Shown piece by piece: positions 2,468 to 61,828 of a DNA stretch of 64,000 nucleotides. The notes below the pieces were generated by a model that was given only the letters and a program-made list of their open reading frames with translations, searched no databases and was not told where the DNA came from. Both the position numbers and the translations under genes were made by a program. Positions within the stretch are counted from its first letter, which is position 1. Each line of letters opens with the position of its first letter. Source of the DNA: Curvibacter sp. PAE-UM (GTDB lineage Bacteria > Pseudomonadota > Gammaproteobacteria > Burkholderiales > Burkholderiaceae_C); assembly GCF_001432305.1 (NCBI RefSeq), contig NZ_KQ483358.1:2541822-2605821 (forward strand). Direction: 5' to 3'.

Positions 2468-3316
2468 TCAGCGGGCTGTCTGCATGCGCAGCAGCCGCGC
2501 GGCTTCCTCGGCCCGCGCGTCGTCGATCACGCGGGTCAGGTCTGCAACATCCACCGCACCCACGGGCTTCTCGAAGCGCCCGCTCAGCGGCGTCTCGGTG
2601 TTCAGCACCCCGCGCTGGTACAGCGCCCAGATCTCCGGGCCGTAATCGGTCAACAGCAGCTCGGGCGCGAACTGCCCGAAAAAATCGCGCAGGTTGGCCA
2701 CGTCACGCAGCAGCATGCGCGCGGCGTGGTTGTTGCCCGCCGCGTCCACCGCCTGCGGCAGGTCGATGATCACCGGGCCGTCCGCCGCCAGCAGGATGTT
2801 GAATTCCGACAGGTCGCCGTGCACGATGCCCGCGCACAGCATGCGCACCACCTCGGTCAGCAGCGTGGCGTGGTGCTGGCGTGCTTCTTCCGGCGTGAAG
2901 ACCACGTCGTTCAGGCGCGGTGCCGCGTCGCCGTGCTCGTCCGTCACCAGTTCCATCAGCAACACACCCTCGTGGAAGTTCCAGGGCTTGGGCACGCGCA
3001 CGCCGGCCGCGGCCAGGCGGTACAGCGCATCGACCTCGGCACTCTGCCAGGCCGCCTCGATGGCCTGGCGGCCATAACGCGAGCCCTTGGCCATGGCGCG
3101 GGCCTGGCGTGTGTTCTTCACCTTGCGGTTCTCGGTGTAGTCCACTGCCTGGCGGAAGCTGCGCTGCGTGGCGTCCTTGTAGATCTTGGCGCAGCGCGTC
3201 TCCTCGCCGCTGCGCACCACGAAGACCTGCGCCTCCTTGCCGCTCATGAGCTGGCGCACCACCGTGTCGATCAGGCCTTCTTCGACCAGGGACTGGAGTC
3301 TTTCGGGTACTTTCAT
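2468..3316 (-). CDS. RIO-type serine/threonine kinase (PA4780-like)
   Basis: The 282-residue protein starts MKVPERLQSLVEEGLIDTVV and has the RIO kinase core: a flexible nucleotide-binding loop MSGKEAQVFVV near residue 24, the catalytic loop HGDLSEFNIL near residue 190 with its Asp and Asn, and the metal-binding motif IIDLPQAVD (DLPQ in place of the usual DFPQ). RIO kinases are best known in archaeal and eukaryotic ribosome maturation; the bacterial versions are small soluble kinases/ATPases whose targets are mostly unknown. The start at 3316 is preferred because sequence further upstream is Arg/Pro-rich and not RIO-like. It stands alone between convergent and divergent neighbours. Confidence 0.88.
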   Translation of the reverse strand: MKVPERLQSLVEEGLIDTVVRQLMSGKEAQVFVVRSGEETRCAKIYKDATQRSFRQAVDYTENRKVKNTRQARAMAKGSRYGRQAIEAAWQSAEVDALYRLAAAGVRVPKPWNFHEGVLLMELVTDEHGDAAPRLNDVVFTPEEARQHHATLLTEVVRMLCAGIVHGDLSEFNILLAADGPVIIDLPQAVDAAGNNHAARMLLRDVANLRDFFGQFAPELLLTDYGPEIWALYQRGVLNTETPLSGRFEKPVGAVDVADLTRVIDDARAEEAARLLRMQTAR

Positions 3317-10432: not shown

Positions 10433-10446
10433 TTGACAGACGTCAA
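10433..10446. promoter_or_regulatory. FNR-type operator box TTGAC-N4-GTCAA
   Basis: The 14-bp sequence TTGACAGACGTCAA is a perfect inverted repeat with a four-base spacer, the form bound by Crp/Fnr family regulators of the FNR type. It lies between the Mpo1-like gene (start 10410) and the Crp/Fnr gene (start 10515), so it could control both. Matching boxes occur at 33497, 38478 and 52368. Confidence 0.75.
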
Positions 10447-10514
10447 TGATCGACCTACCCTCGGCACCAGTCTGTCAGGTACCCGACACAAGCCTTCGCC
10501 CCCGTACAAACCCC

Positions 10515-11219
10515 ATGAACGACGCGCAACACTACCTGCCCGTGCTCCAGGCCGGCCGCTGGTACGCCCAGCTACCGCCCGAGTTCGCCCAGGCCCTGCT
10601 CAAGATGGCCAAGGTGCGCCAATTGCAGACGGGCGAGGTGCTGTTCCTGCGCGACAGCCCACCCTGCGGCCTCTACGCCGTGGTGTCGGGTTCCATCCGC
10701 ATCTCGGGCCAGAGCGGCCGCGGCGACGACGCACGCGAGGCCCTGCTGGTGGTGCTGCCGCCACCCCAGTGGTTCGGCGAGATCACCGTCTTCGACGGCG
10801 CCACCCGCACCCACCACGCGCATGCGGCCGAACCCAGCACCCTGCTACAGGTGCCGCAGGCCGAGCTGCTGGCCTGGCTGCACGAGCACCCGCAGCACTG
10901 GCGCGATCTGGCTGTGCTCATGGCCGACAAGCTGCGTCTGGCCTTCCTGACCATGGAGGAACAGACCGTGCTCAGCGCCCCGCTGCGCCTGGCGCGGCGC
11001 CTGGTGGGCATGGCGGAGGGTTACGGGGTACAGACGGGCCGCGGCGGCACACGGCGCGTGCTGGCCGTGACCCAGCAGGAACTGGCGCTGATGATCGGCG
11101 TGTCACGCCAGACGACCAACCAGATCCTCAAGGAGCTGGAGGCGCAGGGGATTTTGCGGGTGCAGAGAGGTGGAATCGAGATATTAGAGCTGAAGGATCT
11201 TCGATCGCTAGGTCAATAA
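10515..11219 (+). CDS. Crp/Fnr family transcriptional regulator
   Basis: The 234-residue protein has an N-terminal cyclic-nucleotide-binding-type barrel (residues 20-140, GEVLFLRDSPPCGLYAVVSGSIRIS) and a C-terminal winged helix (VTQQELALMIGVSRQTTNQILKELEAQGIL, near residue 190). The single cysteine in the barrel rules out an FNR-like iron-sulfur cluster. The recognition helix, SRQTTNQ, lacks the E-x-x-S-R contacts of FNR, so this protein may not be the one that binds the TTGAC box just upstream. An ATG at 10446 would add 23 residues but overlaps that box, so 10515 is preferred. The ligand is unknown. The AT-rich TIR island begins right after this gene. Confidence 0.85.
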   Translation: MNDAQHYLPVLQAGRWYAQLPPEFAQALLKMAKVRQLQTGEVLFLRDSPPCGLYAVVSGSIRISGQSGRGDDAREALLVVLPPPQWFGEITVFDGATRTHHAHAAEPSTLLQVPQAELLAWLHEHPQHWRDLAVLMADKLRLAFLTMEEQTVLSAPLRLARRLVGMAEGYGVQTGRGGTRRVLAVTQQELALMIGVSRQTTNQILKELEAQGILRVQRGGIEILELKDLRSLGQ

Positions 11220-11263
11220 AGTATCGCCAATACTTTCATGATGACCGACCTGCTCGCTTCGTG

Positions 11264-12703
11264 CTATTGAATTTGAGGCTTCTGACCAAGCGCTCTAATC
11301 TGCCTTAAGCCTTCATCACATTTTTTCACCAACAAATCTAATTCGGCTTGTTTGGCTTTCATAGCAGAAGCAAGCCTCTCAAAAGCGTACGGGGTACCTT
11401 CTGATTTTGTAGATTGCTCAAGATAAATAATGCTTTCGGTTGGCAAATCTTTAGTAGATAGGAGGTTCCCAATGTTAGAAAGTATCCACTGCACATTGCC
11501 ACCAAGTGCTACCCCTTGTCGATAGGCGAAGAGTGCTCGATCGTATAGCCTCAATGCATAACATGCATTTCCGAAATAACCCCAATAGTCAGAGTTCTTC
11601 GGAAAATCACGAGTTAGCTTCTCTAGCAGAAAGCTAGATATCTCATTTTTTTCCATAGCTAGGGCCAAACGAGAGAATCGATAGCGAATACTCTCATTTA
11701 CCGAATCTTCTATATATGCTTTGTGAATTGCCACAAATGCGGCATCCTTTTTCCCTTGTTCCTCCAGAATTTCAGAAAGTTTCACGGCCACATCTGAACT
11801 TTCATAGTTTTCAGATTGGTCTAAAGCTCTCTCTGCTAATGAAGGCTCGCCCACTTTCATATAACAATCAGCTAACGCGATTCGAATTTCTGGTTTCTTT
11901 TGAACAATTTCATCCGCCTCGTATATGAGCTGAATTGCAGTATCAGCATGCCCCTCTGCGAGGAGGAGAATGGCGGACATTTCAATTAGGTCAACGTTAC
12001 TTTTTTGATCGCGACAAAATGCACTTATCGCAGCAAGTGCATCTGACTTACCCATCTTCAAGTTATTGAAATGAAGCCAGAGTTCTGTCTTTAGACGATC
12101 AACCCCAGATTGCTTCTGCAGCTTCAGCTCAAGCAGTTGCTGAGCCTCTGCATGATTTCCTGACAGGAATGCTTCAAACCATTTCCCATCTGCATCGGGC
12201 TTAGAAACATCCTCAGCAACACTCGGCGTAGCTAATCGACCAGGAGTCACTCCGATTTTTTTGATCTGGTTACGAATTTGATTGCAAACAGGACCAGTCG
12301 CGGCTTGGAGATTCGTATCGCTTCGAGACCCTTCATACTTTCCAGGTGTTATCCCAAGCAAGTCGGTCGGCAGATGCAAGTCTGTAATGTTATCGGGGAT
12401 CAGAAAAAAAGCTCTATCCCGCCCAAGCTTTCCAAGAAAGAGACCCAGCTCAAAAAGAACGTTGTCTCGCACAACTGGAGTTGATGCTTTCCGAATGGTT
12501 GCGATGTCGTCAGGCGTAAAAATGAAAATCCCAAAATCACTTGTATTCAAAATATCGATAAGCGAGTCTACGGCTCCTGCCGTAAGCTGAAAAACTCCTT
12601 GACTCCAAACCGTGATTTCAGCGTCATACAACAGGTTTTGCTGTACCGCATACGCAATATTTAAGCCCTCTACGGAGGATCCAATAAATGCTCGAGGCTT
12701 CAT
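11264..12703 (-). CDS. TIR domain (CAP12/PCTIR type) fused to TPR repeats; candidate anti-phage NADase
   Basis: The 479-residue protein opens with a TIR-like domain of the CAP12/Pycsar-effector type (residues 1-125): RAFIGSSVEGLNIAYAVQ, the SDFGIFIFTPDD strand-loop, and RDNVLFELGLFLGKLGRDRA with the Glu expected to be catalytic, followed by LPTDLLGITPGKYEG. In studied systems this domain destroys NAD+ on infection. After a linker, residues 190-465 are TPR/SEL1-like helical repeats (ALADCYMKVGEPSLAERALD, YFGNACYALRLYDRALFAYRQG), probably a sensor or scaffold. No cyclase or other partner gene is adjacent. Base composition is much more AT-rich than the surroundings, and AGGGGA precedes the start, so it looks like an acquired single-gene unit. 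The defence role is inference from the domain and context. Confidence 0.82.
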   Translation of the reverse strand: MKPRAFIGSSVEGLNIAYAVQQNLLYDAEITVWSQGVFQLTAGAVDSLIDILNTSDFGIFIFTPDDIATIRKASTPVVRDNVLFELGLFLGKLGRDRAFFLIPDNITDLHLPTDLLGITPGKYEGSRSDTNLQAATGPVCNQIRNQIKKIGVTPGRLATPSVAEDVSKPDADGKWFEAFLSGNHAEAQQLLELKLQKQSGVDRLKTELWLHFNNLKMGKSDALAAISAFCRDQKSNVDLIEMSAILLLAEGHADTAIQLIYEADEIVQKKPEIRIALADCYMKVGEPSLAERALDQSENYESSDVAVKLSEILEEQGKKDAAFVAIHKAYIEDSVNESIRYRFSRLALAMEKNEISSFLLEKLTRDFPKNSDYWGYFGNACYALRLYDRALFAYRQGVALGGNVQWILSNIGNLLSTKDLPTESIIYLEQSTKSEGTPYAFERLASAMKAKQAELDLLVKKCDEGLRQIRALGQKPQIQ

Positions 12704-12904
12704 ATAGTTCCCCTAATTAATTCAACGCAAAAGCAACTCTTTTATGTCGCGCAAGGTTGCTAATAAACTCAAGGGCTACGCCTAAAAACTCTCAACTATC
12801 TTTTGCGTCTTGCTCTACTAGTGCAAAGTTTAGCCCCAGCGAGGATATGTCAGAGTTGCAGAAAAAAAGGCGCACCCCGCATTAGAGCTACGCCTTTTCT
12901 TCAG
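12704..12904. other. AT-rich leader of the TIR island and its junction with a broken chemoreceptor gene
   Basis: The stretch is AT-rich and probably holds the promoter of the TIR-TPR gene. At 12857-12902 AAAAAGGCG and CGCCTTTTCTT could pair as a terminator-like hairpin. Homology to the chemoreceptor stops at about 12905, which marks the island edge. Confidence 0.5.
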
Positions 12905-13120
12905 CATGTCTTGCCAACAACCGGTGTGGATGTTGCGATACCAGTCACTGTTGAGGCGCTCGGTCTTGAGGGGCACCACCATATTGCGTGTAGCCTCTAC
13001 CACCGAGTCCAGGCGCGAGATGCTGACCACGATGGTGATGAGTGCCAGCAGCAGCAGCACCAACGAAAACCCAGGGCCCAGCCGCTTGGCGACCGAGAGG
13101 TTCGAAATAAAGGTTGGCAT
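12905..13120 (-). pseudogene. 5' remnant of a methyl-accepting chemotaxis protein gene
   Basis: The first 68 or so codons read MPTFISNLSVAKRLGPGFSLVLLLLALITIVVSISRL..., which is the cytoplasmic start, first transmembrane helix and beginning of the four-helix-bundle ligand domain of a betaproteobacterial MCP (SVAKRLGPGFSLVLLL and TRNMVVPLKTERLNSDWYRNIHTG are typical). After YRNIHTG the frame runs into unrelated Cys/Lys/Arg-rich sequence and stops at 12830. No second membrane helix, HAMP or signalling domain follows anywhere nearby. The rest of the gene was lost or displaced, most simply by arrival of the AT-rich TIR island directly downstream. Confidence 0.82.
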
Positions 13121-13165
13121 GGACGGTTCTGTAAAAGCAAGTGGGCCTGCAGGATAAAGATGGGA

Positions 13166-14353
13166 CTAGACAGCTGAGCCGAGGCGCCCCACGCCTTCGA
13201 CGATCTTGTCCTCCCCTACCGTCGCAAAACTCAGGCGCAGGGTCGAGGCATCGGGGTTGGTCGCATAAAACGGCGCGCCCGGCACAAAGGCCACACCCTT
13301 CTCGATCGCACGTTTGGCCAGTTCACCCGCATCCTTGAGCTTGCCGTTCGCACCCGTGAGCCGGGCCCAGAAGAACAGGCCGCCGCCGGGCTGGGTGAAC
13401 TCGATGGCGTCGCCCAGTTCCTTCTTCAAACATTCGCCCATGGTCCTGGCGCGGCCGGCGTAGACCTCACGCACATGGGCCAGGGTGGCGGGCATACGGC
13501 CGGCCTTGAGGTATTGGGCGGCGGTGGCCTGGGCAAAGGTGCTGGTGTGGGCGTCGCTGAACTGCTTGCACATCGTCGCTTTCGCCAGCAGCTCGGGCGG
13601 GGCGATCATCCAGCCCACGCGCAGGCCGGGGGACAGCACTTTGCTGAGTGAACCGCAGTGCACCAGCCAGTCGCGACTGCCGGGCACCTGGGCCGTGAGG
13701 GCCATGAGGCTCGCAGGCGGGGCCTTGCCGAAATAGAGGTCGCCATAGGGATCGTCCTCGATCACCACGGTTTTCGTCTTCACGGCCAGCTCCAGGATGC
13801 GCTTGCGGCGCTCCAGGCTCAGGGTGGCGCCGCTGGGGTTGCCGAAGGTGGGGATGAGGTAGACGAAGCGCGGCTGGTGCTCGGCGATCAGCTGTTCCAG
13901 CTTATCGACCTGCACGCCGTCGGCATCGATGGGCGCGCCGATGACCTGGGCGCCGTAGAGGCGGAAGCACTGGATGGTGGCGAGGAAGGTGGGCGCCTCG
14001 ACGATGACCTTGGCGCCGGGGTCCACCAGGGTCTTGCCGATCAGGTCCAACGCCTGCTGGCTGCCGGTGGTGACGATCAGCCCGTCTGCGGCGACCTGCA
14101 CGCCCTTGGCTTGCATGAAGGCGGCCAGCTGTTCGCGCAGGGGGTTGTAGCCTTCAGTGGCGCCGTACTGCAGGGCGGCGCCGGGTTCTTCGCTCAGCGC
14201 TTTCTGCGAGGCATCACGGATGCCGTCCACGTCGAACATGGCGCTGTCGGGGAAACCACCGGCAAAGGAGATGATGCCGGGCTTGCCCAGCAGCTTGAAG
14301 AGTTCGCGGATGGCGGAGGTTTCGACGTTGTTGAGGCGGTCGGCGAATTGCAT
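13166..14353 (-). CDS. PLP-dependent aminotransferase, class I/II (2-aminoadipate/MocR-free type)
   Basis: The 395-residue enzyme has the fold-type I aminotransferase motifs: ISFAGGFPDSAMFD near residue 28, TTGSQQALDLIGKTLVDPG near residue 95, YLIPTFGNPSGATLS near residue 166 and the PLP lysine in HCGSLSKVLSPGLRVGWM near residue 237. It resembles LysN/2-aminoadipate and broad aromatic or branched-chain aminotransferases, which move amino groups between amino acids and 2-oxoglutarate. The donor cannot be fixed from sequence. It stands alone, 45 bp from the broken chemoreceptor gene and divergent from nothing obvious. A start at 14353 (MQFADRLNNVETSAIREL) fits the family N terminus. Confidence 0.9.
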   Translation of the reverse strand: MQFADRLNNVETSAIRELFKLLGKPGIISFAGGFPDSAMFDVDGIRDASQKALSEEPGAALQYGATEGYNPLREQLAAFMQAKGVQVAADGLIVTTGSQQALDLIGKTLVDPGAKVIVEAPTFLATIQCFRLYGAQVIGAPIDADGVQVDKLEQLIAEHQPRFVYLIPTFGNPSGATLSLERRKRILELAVKTKTVVIEDDPYGDLYFGKAPPASLMALTAQVPGSRDWLVHCGSLSKVLSPGLRVGWMIAPPELLAKATMCKQFSDAHTSTFAQATAAQYLKAGRMPATLAHVREVYAGRARTMGECLKKELGDAIEFTQPGGGLFFWARLTGANGKLKDAGELAKRAIEKGVAFVPGAPFYATNPDASTLRLSFATVGEDKIVEGVGRLGSAV

Positions 14354-60454: not shown

Positions 60455-61747
60455 CTACGAGGAAAAAAGATAAGGCGCGCGAAGCAAAACCGTCTGGGCG
60501 AGAAGTCGAACATCGTCGGCAGGTTGAGTTTGAAAATGCTGCCTGTATCGCCTGAACTTCGACCATTCCGAAATGAATCTACTTCCTCCATGAACGATTT
60601 CATTACGAAGTTCAAACAGCCAAGACGCTTTTTCAATTAAGACTGATGGCAGATTGAGTTCTTGCAACCCCTGCAGAATCGACTTTTCAACTGAGCCACG
60701 CTCTCCAAACATTGCATCAAGAGAAACAAAATAATTAATGTAGGCCTCGATGTCGCCCGAATTCATCCCCCTATTAAAGAAATGAGTGGACTTCTCAATT
60801 CGACTTCGATCTGAACCGGAACACCTAGAACTGCTGGCGTACCAATCTTGGATTAATGCTACGTCCTTAGAGGAAAGTGGTATGTCGGTGACATAAAACG
60901 GCATAACAGGATCACAATCTTTTCTCGTTATCTGAGCTTCTTTCGACAATCGATGGGGGAACTGAATGAGAAATTCATATGGATAGCTCATAGCCTTAAA
61001 AAAAGGTCTGGCAGCACTTTCCGACGCAATCGCAAACAGGATTGCCGCCAACGTCCTAAACTTCAGGGCACCGCTAAATCTAACCCCATCTGACGTTCCG
61101 TACTCTTCCGCAACAAGAACACACTCGAAATGACCAGGGGGAGAGAATGTACGATCCCCATCATTTCCGATTTGCGGGCGAAGCGGTGTCCAACCACTAA
61201 ACCTGTATCCCTTCTCAACCAGTTGATTCCACGCCACCTCATCGTCTCTTTTTATGAGACGAACAGAGTCGTTATCTAGAGAAAAACTTGGGACCTGGAA
61301 TCGAGGAACTGCGTAGAGAACACATCGATGGCCTATCCGCTGCCGAAGATTGGATTCAATTTCTCCTTGTATTGAGGCTGCAAATTGCGGGACAGGGACT
61401 ACACGACAATCAAATAAGGTTCTATTTCGGCAAAGGAATACAGCGTCCCCATCGAAAATCTTATTGTCGAGGCATATTTCCTGCAGCGTTGTTGTTACCG
61501 CATCTGAAACAGATTCAAGATCACAATTTCTAAATTCTGATGAGTCTTCAATTACCAGCAAAGAAACACTCTCAATCGCCTGAAATGTGTCAGCGGTGTA
61601 CCACCAAGATAAAGCGATCCCACTGGGAAAAACAAAAGGCTTTTGCTTTCCTGCAAAAAATTGAAGTGATGGTCGTCTTTCTGAGTCTTCTACTCGCAAC
61701 AGAATATTTTTCGTTAGACGAACTATCTGACTTAGAAGTGGTGTCAT
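60455..61747 (-). CDS. HEPN-domain protein (Apea-like), candidate RNase/defence protein
   Basis: The 430-residue protein is coded in clearly AT-rich DNA. Its C terminus has a HEPN fold with the catalytic R-x4-H: LFELRNEIVHGGSRF near residue 380, preceded by the helix YINYFVSLDAMFGERGSVEKSILQGLQELN, as in Apea-like HEPN proteins. The N-terminal 300 residues are an unknown mixed domain that may bind the trigger. HEPN RNases cut RNA, often tRNA, and many halt growth on phage infection. Start ATG 61747; a GTG at 61759 would add four residues. There is no antitoxin or helicase gene beside it. The defence role is inference. Confidence 0.75.
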   Translation of the reverse strand: MTPLLSQIVRLTKNILLRVEDSERRPSLQFFAGKQKPFVFPSGIALSWWYTADTFQAIESVSLLVIEDSSEFRNCDLESVSDAVTTTLQEICLDNKIFDGDAVFLCRNRTLFDCRVVPVPQFAASIQGEIESNLRQRIGHRCVLYAVPRFQVPSFSLDNDSVRLIKRDDEVAWNQLVEKGYRFSGWTPLRPQIGNDGDRTFSPPGHFECVLVAEEYGTSDGVRFSGALKFRTLAAILFAIASESAARPFFKAMSYPYEFLIQFPHRLSKEAQITRKDCDPVMPFYVTDIPLSSKDVALIQDWYASSSRCSGSDRSRIEKSTHFFNRGMNSGDIEAYINYFVSLDAMFGERGSVEKSILQGLQELNLPSVLIEKASWLFELRNEIVHGGSRFISEWSKFRRYRQHFQTQPADDVRLLAQTVLLRAPYLFSS

Positions 61748-61828
61748 ACATATAAGCACTAAAACCTAATTTTTCATTCTAGATATCAATTAGCATCAAT
61801 TTAAGTCTTAAGCAATTAGCCGACCAAC

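Follow-up and report, generated by a model that had tools for sequence, protein, structure and literature searches.

Introduction

The TIR-NLR gene of P4-like phage satellites encodes a TIR-STAND-TPR protein that has been validated against phages, and its authors propose, in passages of the same paper, that the TPRs are possible infection sensors (Rousset et al. 2022, PMC9122126). Avs4/AVAST, a STAND-family protein, is likewise said to contact a phage portal through its TPR domain, as cited in PMC12847820; in that same text SpbK is described as a TIR NADase that clusters on the phage portal, such that the portal dodecamer gathers the TIRs and NAD+ is lost, and it is called necessary and sufficient for protection. 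ElSTING, which carries a TIR of the type considered here, cleaves NAD+ itself and clusters in fibres; passages of the paper name E86, which was mutated, as the catalytic residue, and presume W34 and F39 to bind the substrate (PMC12421889). Finally, a 2026 preprint reports, in the portions cited here, that other CAP12/Pycsar TIRs are active NADases upon oligomerising, and describes a CC loop with a β-hairpin like that of SfSTING (PMC13142454).

Here we consider a gene within the ‘window’, by which we mean the whole stretch of DNA that was analysed, 64,000 nucleotides in length. A first-pass annotation had read this gene as a TIR-TPR single-gene island and as a candidate undescribed anti-phage system. 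In our view it is probably a one-gene suicide defence against viruses, because a foreign-looking gene joining a TIR to a repeat arm has relatives that stand by themselves in phages and in bacteria of widely differing kinds.

Domain architecture of the window protein

The open reading frame occupies exactly 11264-12703 of the window on the minus strand, with 479 codons and an ATG start. Its GC content is 43.8%, as compared with 66.0% in the remaining window, which agrees with the earlier description of a gene far richer in AT than its neighbours; a 1-kb GC profile gives values of 0.46-0.47 at the gene and 0.59-0.73 elsewhere in the window, except at 60-62 kb. The parts of the gene are as follows.

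11264..12703, minus strand: TIR-TPR gene, 479 aa (ORF, Pfam, family of 25 distinct loci, structure model)
12248..12703, minus strand: TIR domain of CAP12/PCTIR type, residues 1-152 (PF10137; 9lmq, 8jsj and 7un8 by sequence; 9lmq and 7un8 by fold)
11369..12193, minus strand: TPR superhelix, residues 171-445 (Pfam TPR models, helices of the structure model, regional conservation)
Subregions of the TPR superhelix: residues 171-350, variable; residues 351-445, more conserved (conservation by region)
11288..11368, minus strand: remainder of the long C-terminal helix, residues 446-472 (structure model, helix 438-472)

Residues 5-124 match the Pfam family CAP12-PCTIR_TIR (PF10137) with an E value of 5.4e-31 and 107.5 bits against a cut-off of 24.7, so that the protein is, as judged from its sequence, a member of the PF10137 TIR family, just as the first-pass annotation had supposed. 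The ‘long TPR-like tail’ of that annotation was likewise recovered, both by Pfam and in a structure model: TPR_19, TPR_2 and TPR_14 match at their Pfam cut-offs, with further, weaker TPR-type matches scattered across residues 222-433, and an AlphaFold2 model built from 19 family rows (mean pLDDT 82.8) predicts a TIR domain and a continuous helical superhelix. Within this model, the TIR (pLDDT 65-90 by block) contains a strand pair at residues 67-69 and 76-78, the linker between TIR and TPR is short (about 151-170, with pLDDT under 50 at 159-170), and helices span residues 171-472, the final one being long; the packing of the TIR against the TPR arm is uncertain, with a pTM of 0.57.

Among solved structures, 9lmq lies nearest to the window protein by sequence (1.8e-22), followed by PycTIR (8jsj) and then by 7un8. 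Foldseek matches, each of which covers one part of the protein (TM-scores of 0.24-0.39 by query length), pair the TIR part with 9lmq (E 1.3e-7) and 7un8 (E 2e-5, rmsd 3.2 over 149 columns), and the arm with the superhelical TPR of 1w3b (E 1.1e-7), whilst a search of a viral-structure library returned TPR-type matches and one weak TIR match. The arm looks like generic TPRs, and no ligand is predicted from it. A scan for promoter-like sites gave none (2.4 expected), and a scan for terminator-like sites gave two (1.8 expected), neither count being informative.

Predicted NADase site

From its title and date we take the entry 9lmq to be ElSTING, with which its residue numbering is consistent. When the window protein is aligned to it by sequence, W33, F38 and E85 fall on W34, F39 and E86 respectively, the last being the conserved glutamate of FELGLFLGK to which the first-pass annotation had pointed. 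All three are invariant in the 19 rows of our alignment A4, of which 18 are distinct (L021 being identical to L033), and which does not include L014, L040, L046, L050, L051, L148 and L149. The corresponding positions in the window are given below.

12449..12451, minus strand: codon of E85, predicted catalytic glutamate (the Glu of FELGLFLGK), aligned to E86 of 9lmq and invariant in 19/19 rows
12590..12607, minus strand: BB-loop segment from W33 to F38, predicted to contact NAD; the two residues correspond to W34 and F39 in 9lmq and are invariant in 19/19 rows

At the level of residues the TIR active site of the window protein is intact, and none of the site residues whose loss would have spoken against a TIR NADase is missing; activity of the protein as an NADase would be expected by analogy with ElSTING.

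Comparison with known systems

Set side by side by architecture, the TIR-NLR described in PMC9122126 and the window family are alike in being one gene with an N-terminal TIR and a C-terminal TPR, that of the TIR-NLR being borne by a phage satellite, but differ in that the TIR-NLR has a central STAND NTPase, whereas the window family gives no NTPase match in Pfam and shows a Walker A motif in 0/19 rows. The TIR-STING or Cap12 proteins of CBASS (SfSTING, 7un8; ElSTING, 9lmq) have the same N-terminal type of TIR, with conserved active-site residues and a matching fold; their second domain, however, is a STING sensor for cyclic dinucleotides, encoded in a CBASS operon with a cyclase, in contrast to the TPR arm of the window protein, for which no cyclase was found. 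The NCBIfam Cap12 models match residues 1-144 only, at 121.8 bits (NF050172, residues 1-143) and 86.1 bits against a cut-off of 450, and no model in PADLOC or NCBIfam fits the whole window protein.

PycTIR of Pycsar (8jsj) belongs to the same TIR family, but its TIR is C-terminal, because the match falls at residues 156-309, whereas the window protein has an N-terminal TIR followed by TPRs, stands alone, and has no cNMP domain according to Pfam. PycTIR comes with a cNMP sensor and a neighbouring pyclase. Avs4 is a larger protein with another effector; as it is described in the text cited above, its TPR domain is a likeness to the arm of the window protein, and its membership of the STAND family a difference. 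The portal-binding part of SpbK, again compared by description, is N-terminal (PMC12847820), unlike the C-terminal TPR arm seen here.

One defining feature each of Cap12, PycTIR, TIR-NLR and Thoeris was looked for (that of Thoeris by a general comparison of neighbour genes) and found to be missing, and because of this we do not assign the window protein to any of them; by analogy, it should act like a single-gene TIR abortive-infection protein. Among the literature matches listed, in their titles, abstracts or passages, no bacterial TIR-TPR gene without an NTPase is described, and the apparent lack of an NTPase between sensor and enzyme is what is new. The label ‘undescribed’ stands to this extent, together with the want of a whole-protein model noted above, and has to be tempered by the related TIR-NLR, which has the added NTPase and is both known and phage-tested.

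Near relatives of the TIR alone, with up to 61% identity, also occur in orphan CAP12-type proteins (L009, L043, L044, L045 and others). Many such proteins, at loci L009 and L042-L104, match in the TIR part only and have other C-terminal parts, and in the four that were scanned (L043, L044, L045 and L061) no Pfam domain other than the TIR was found. Such proteins may form a wider group of one-gene TIR receptors that is still unexplored.

Insertion site in the window

The window’s own copy lies between two genes that converge on it, a Crp/Fnr-type regulator and an aminotransferase, with a short open reading frame in between.

10446..11219, plus strand: Crp/Fnr-type regulator gene, whose 3' end is one edge of a variable slot (Pfam; homology to five relatives ends at 11170-11192)
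13166..14353, minus strand: aminotransferase gene, whose 3' end is the other edge of the slot (Pfam; the same five cease to be homologous at 13179-13203)
12830..13120, minus strand: short ORF of 96 aa, probably a gene remnant (no Pfam match; 12921-13121, or most of it, matches at 71-76% elsewhere in genomes G003, G007 and G008)

Five same-genus genomes carry the two flanks on a single contig. Their flanks share 84-94% identity with those of the window and end at nearly identical bases, and the slot in between, 0.8-2.1 kb long, is filled by other ORFs, most of them with 49-62% GC and none of them TIR-TPR. Because the flanks are conserved while the contents differ among species of the genus (loci L135-L145), we regard the site, at 11170-13203 of the window, as a variable slot that exchanges small foreign cargo, sometimes of a defence-like kind: a NERD-nuclease-domain gene occupies the slot of L138, and at L145, for which we have the aminotransferase flank alone, the genes that follow it give matches to PDC-M36A, a candidate defence system. 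Searched against PADLOC, the cargo ORFs of L138, L141 and L137 gave no match or a marginal one. At the window’s copy we recognised neither an integrase nor bounding repeats, the repeat pairs there being weak and apparently due to chance, and no integron-type end was seen by eye in the window. At L139, a stretch of about 305 bp from the 3' end of the aminotransferase gene occurs in duplicate, at 2463-2767 and from 3624, on either side of a segment of cargo, and may record the way in which the slot acquires genes.

Search for partner and cyclase genes

In an all-against-all comparison of the ORF proteins of 23 loci and the window, the TIR-TPR gene alone is common to all, and no other gene is found in more than two loci. 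Ten families besides TIR-TPR occur at two loci, and six of these ten are the same Aeromonas phage encountered twice (L021 and L033); the ORFs were called by a simple longest-ORF script, and some of the neighbours are possibly spurious. At the DNA level, 210 pairwise comparisons of 21 loci gave matches that lie in or over the TIR-TPR gene, with two exceptions that fall outside it.

The mobility of the single gene is seen in Pseudomonas, where L026 and L027 have only 1,769 bp in common, at 95.9% identity, within 21.4-kb loci; the segment consists of the TIR-TPR gene (dN/dS 0.115) with 162 bp before it and 80 bp after. An end motif common to these Pseudomonas units was considered as a genome-wide repeat, but was dropped, as it occurs at 1 and 4 places in the two genomes. 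The copy in Vibrio rotiferianus (L036) has repeats of one family on either side of it: some are 125 nt long, one of these stopping 26 bp short of the gene, and another, of 92 nt, stands at the gene end. The same family recurs behind nearby small genes in the pattern of a chromosomal integron. This copy looks like a one-gene integron cassette, and one that seems to hold the TIR-TPR gene alone, because members of the repeat family bound the gene on both sides.

These observations bear upon an alternative in which the TIR would not deplete NAD+ directly but would turn it, in the manner of Thoeris, into a nucleotide messenger for an effector whose gene lies elsewhere. Some TIR proteins, Thoeris being an example, signal in this way according to passages in PMC9122126 and PMC13142454, and kinship with the CAP12 type is compatible with the idea; but the general neighbour comparison yielded no shared gene, such as a ThsA-like effector beside the TIR gene, that is common to more than two of the 23 loci, and since the TIR-TPR gene moves alone, a messenger would have to find its effector in every host across several phyla. 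Moreover, direct cleavage of NAD+ is what is reported for ElSTING, which has the same type of TIR (PMC12421889), and all told we regard signalling of this kind as improbable.

Nor do we give much credence to the view that the protein is an orphan CBASS or Pycsar effector which answers a cyclic nucleotide from an unlinked cyclase, and we rate this as very improbable. In its favour, the TIR family and the best PADLOC models (matching residues 1-154 only) are those of CBASS/Pycsar effectors, and the convergent Crp-type neighbour also matches these PycTIR-type PADLOC models (1.5e-7) by way of its cNMP-binding domain. That neighbour, however, has a Crp-type HTH for DNA binding and is retained in relatives that lack the TIR gene, and both STING and cNMP domains are absent from the window protein by Pfam. 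PF18144, the single CD-NTase model used, has no match in 16 of the 19 genomes or records searched, the window’s genome being one of the 16, and in the other three its matches are always on a contig other than that of TIR-TPR; the 19 include one plasmid and one 7.4-kb virus record. Matches to the PycC model occur in 16/19 genomes and also in 4/14 control genomes; we judged them by position only, because the model matches ordinary cyclase and Crp domains as well as those controls. Five such matches are present in the window’s genome, none of them inside the window, and for the loci at which positions were compared with that of the TIR-TPR gene (L014, L030, L031 and L034) none is near. Within the limits of the models used, the gene is not a truncated part of a known operon with a cyclase partner, and the statement that no cyclase, pyclase or partner gene lies adjacent to it has been upheld by PF18144, by the PycC positions and by the 23-locus comparison.

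A rare, cross-phylum family

Including the window, there are 21 distinct intact TIR-TPR copies in five phyla (Pseudomonadota, Bacteroidota, Spirochaetota, Thermodesulfobacteriota and Bipolaricaulota), or 25 distinct loci in six phyla when interrupted copies are counted, Bacillota being represented by the interrupted L046 alone; phyla were taken from the record title or tree label, with L035 and the virus contigs left outside the phylum count. The window gene is not a chance ORF, because 24 further distinct loci carry homologues of it, 20 of them intact. The order of TIR then TPR, which had been put forward as a point to check, is kept in all 21 intact copies.

A tblastn search of plasmids gave one full-length relative, on a Leptospira interrogans plasmid (L014; 35% identity over 95% of the query). 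A two-row alignment search of viral contigs yielded L020 and L021, and a four-row alignment search of genome contigs yielded 113 relatives, 80 of which were kept, with L025-L039 and L041 as the intact full-length genes among these; later scans contributed L148 and L149. Duplicates were merged (L021 and L146 with L033; L147 with L020). The copies at L040, L046, L050 and L051 are shortened or interrupted, with assembly errors being possible.

The family is rare: no full-length TIR-TPR was found in 398 genomes of the phylum besides the window’s own, nor in any of 25 same-genus genomes. At the DNA level 5,426 E. coli genomes gave no match to the L033 gene, and a search of 50,697 phage records with the proteins of the window and of L033 likewise gave none. 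It is also coherent as a cross-phylum family, and new in this analysis. When 84 TIR domains are placed on a tree, three label changes account for the 21 rows that are TIR-TPR, against a mean of 18.9 for shuffled labels (0/500 shuffles as low as this). The starred branches force at least two changes, and the notion of a single strict TIR-TPR clade was dropped, since none of 200 bootstrap trees needs just one. The tree, which omits L021 (the same gene as L033), L050, L051, L095, L024, L098, L099 and loci lacking a usable ORF, and which predates L148 and L149, fits, but does not prove, one old fusion followed by a few losses or swaps of the tail.

Conservation is uneven along the protein, with a mean identity to the window of 0.62 in the TIR, 0.21-0.24 in the first half of the TPR arm and 0.41 in TPR residues 351-445; W406, N410, G412, N413 and Y439 are invariant in 19 rows. 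In 16 of 17 measurable relatives the GC content of the gene is below that of sequence more than 4 kb away. For six pairs drawn from four close copies, dN/dS is 0-0.09 in the TIR and 0.10-0.18 in the variable TPR, dS being saturated or not computable in some L148 pairs; purifying selection acts between close copies, with a dN/dS of about 0.12. Positive selection in the TPR arm was also considered, and there is no sign of it: in the few close pairs, the TPR region stays under a dN/dS of 0.2.

Genomic surroundings of the relatives

In Aeromonas lusitana (L033) the gene lies within a P2-like prophage, in the order terminase-portal ORF, Ogr/Delta finger, TIR-TPR, one more ORF and gpA; the anti-phage hotspot of P2-like phages is placed between gpA and the portal gene gpQ in passages of Rousset et al. 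2022 (PMC9122126). On one phage contig (L148) TIR-TPR follows endolysin, spanin and DNA-methyltransferase genes, and on another (L149) it has for neighbours a tape-measure gene and, at 2508-3302, a PDC-S15-type candidate defence gene. It is close to an integrase and a phage primase at L020, and at L029 is followed by an OLD/Gabija-like ATPase and by type I HsdM and HsdS. The interrupted copy at L046 has an AbiLi-like ATPase alongside, whilst a neighbour at L028 has a SIR2 domain with no PADLOC match at 1e-8; the plasmid copy at L014 has an integrase nearby, and the gene adjoining it is annotated as a putative abortive-infection protein, again with no PADLOC match at 1e-8.

Together with L036, these make nine of 25 loci with overt mobile or defence-type surroundings. 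Two more are doubtful: L030, where the adjoining DUF6538 protein is possibly a recombinase, and L027, where an HNH gene matching PtuB models is four ORFs away. At the remaining 14 of 25 no mobile or defence neighbour was recognised, and these look like plain chromosomal insertions. An unpicked PADLOC scan of 142 neighbours (proteins of 80 aa or more, no further than four ORFs away, at 22 loci) showed no family that matches more than three of them, among the best 25 of 322 families; further neighbour scans used hand-picked proteins, which is a biased choice. The TIR-TPR gene recurs in mobile or defence-type places; the claim, which is drawn from the surroundings of these 25 loci as we read them, is one of recurrence rather than of measured enrichment. 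As to whether homologues recur in defence islands, mobile or defence-type surroundings are firm at the nine loci, whereas the stronger proposal that most copies lie in such islands had to be rejected in view of the 14 that give no such sign.

These 14 loci, along with the four shortened or interrupted copies, would suit an explanation without any defence role, in which the gene encodes a toxin-like or accessory TIR-TPR protein, or is a decaying foreign gene. The low dN/dS between close copies and the 21 intact copies argue against this, as do the phage, integron-like and defence-gene locations, and it seems to us barely probable at all. Neither is this a housekeeping gene, because 25 same-genus relatives have no full-length copy. 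What had been offered as a candidate defence gene keeps that standing, as a candidate, with its site residues intact, its domain order kept, no recurrent partner, and nine of 25 loci in mobile or defence-type places.

Proposed mechanism

Synthesising the above, we think it reasonably probable that the gene encodes a horizontally spread, one-gene abortive-infection receptor, in which an infection product acts upon the TPR arm, the TIRs cluster, and NAD+ is lost. In the uninfected cell, the C-terminal TPR superhelix would hold the N-terminal TIR domains apart or inactive. Upon infection, the variable part of the arm would sense an infection product directly, by binding it, this being most likely a multimeric phage protein, for example a portal, capsid or tail part; the bound target might then gather the TIR domains ‘head to tail’, such that composite active sites form around E85 with the W33/F38 loop, and the resulting cleavage of NAD+ would halt the cell ahead of phage release. 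We infer that arrest of this kind would be protective. The clustering step is borrowed, by analogy, from the portal dodecamer of SpbK and the fibres of ElSTING, and the sensing step from TIR-NLR and Avs4, in which contact between TPRs and phage proteins has been either suggested or demonstrated.

TPRs in general bind peptides and proteins, and we have also weighed an alternative in which the arm docks a host protein or peptide, as a guard or stress sensor, so that the trigger would be host damage or a small peptide and not a structural part of a phage. The conserved portion of the arm at residues 351-445 would be in keeping with such docking; a conserved host partner would be needed, because the hosts cover several phyla, and the first half of the arm varies strongly, at about 0.2 identity, as varied targets would predict. 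We hold docking of a host component to be unlikely, and prefer the recognition of an infection product.

A more tentative extension of our preferred reading, which we think quite possible but would not press, is that of a minimal NLR-like receptor without an NTPase switch, composed of a TIR, a short linker and a TPR sensor, gated solely by target-templated clustering, and exchanged across phyla as one gene by phages and integrons. The TPR-bearing bacterial immune receptors TIR-NLR and Avs carry a STAND NTPase, and if the family works as proposed, that switch would be dispensable; a single 1.44-kb gene would then be a very simple, complete ‘sensor-plus-killer’ system, easily tested and studied structurally. 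It would also imply that single immune genes move across phyla as integron cassettes and prophage cargo, and raises the question of which target each variable TPR arm has.

Further observations in the window and its genome

A second AT-rich island lies at about 60.4-61.8 kb of the window, with a GC profile of 0.47-0.52. It contains one 434-aa ORF (60455-61759, minus strand) with no Pfam or PADLOC match, in the C-terminal part of which is the motif RNEIVHGG, which we take to resemble the HEPN RNase motif; possibly, this is another orphan defence gene. Elsewhere in the window’s genome, a weak second match to PF10137 (L151, C1:2330527-2330859; 27 bits) falls at the end of a 376-aa ORF that has a long Pro-Ala/Thr repeat.
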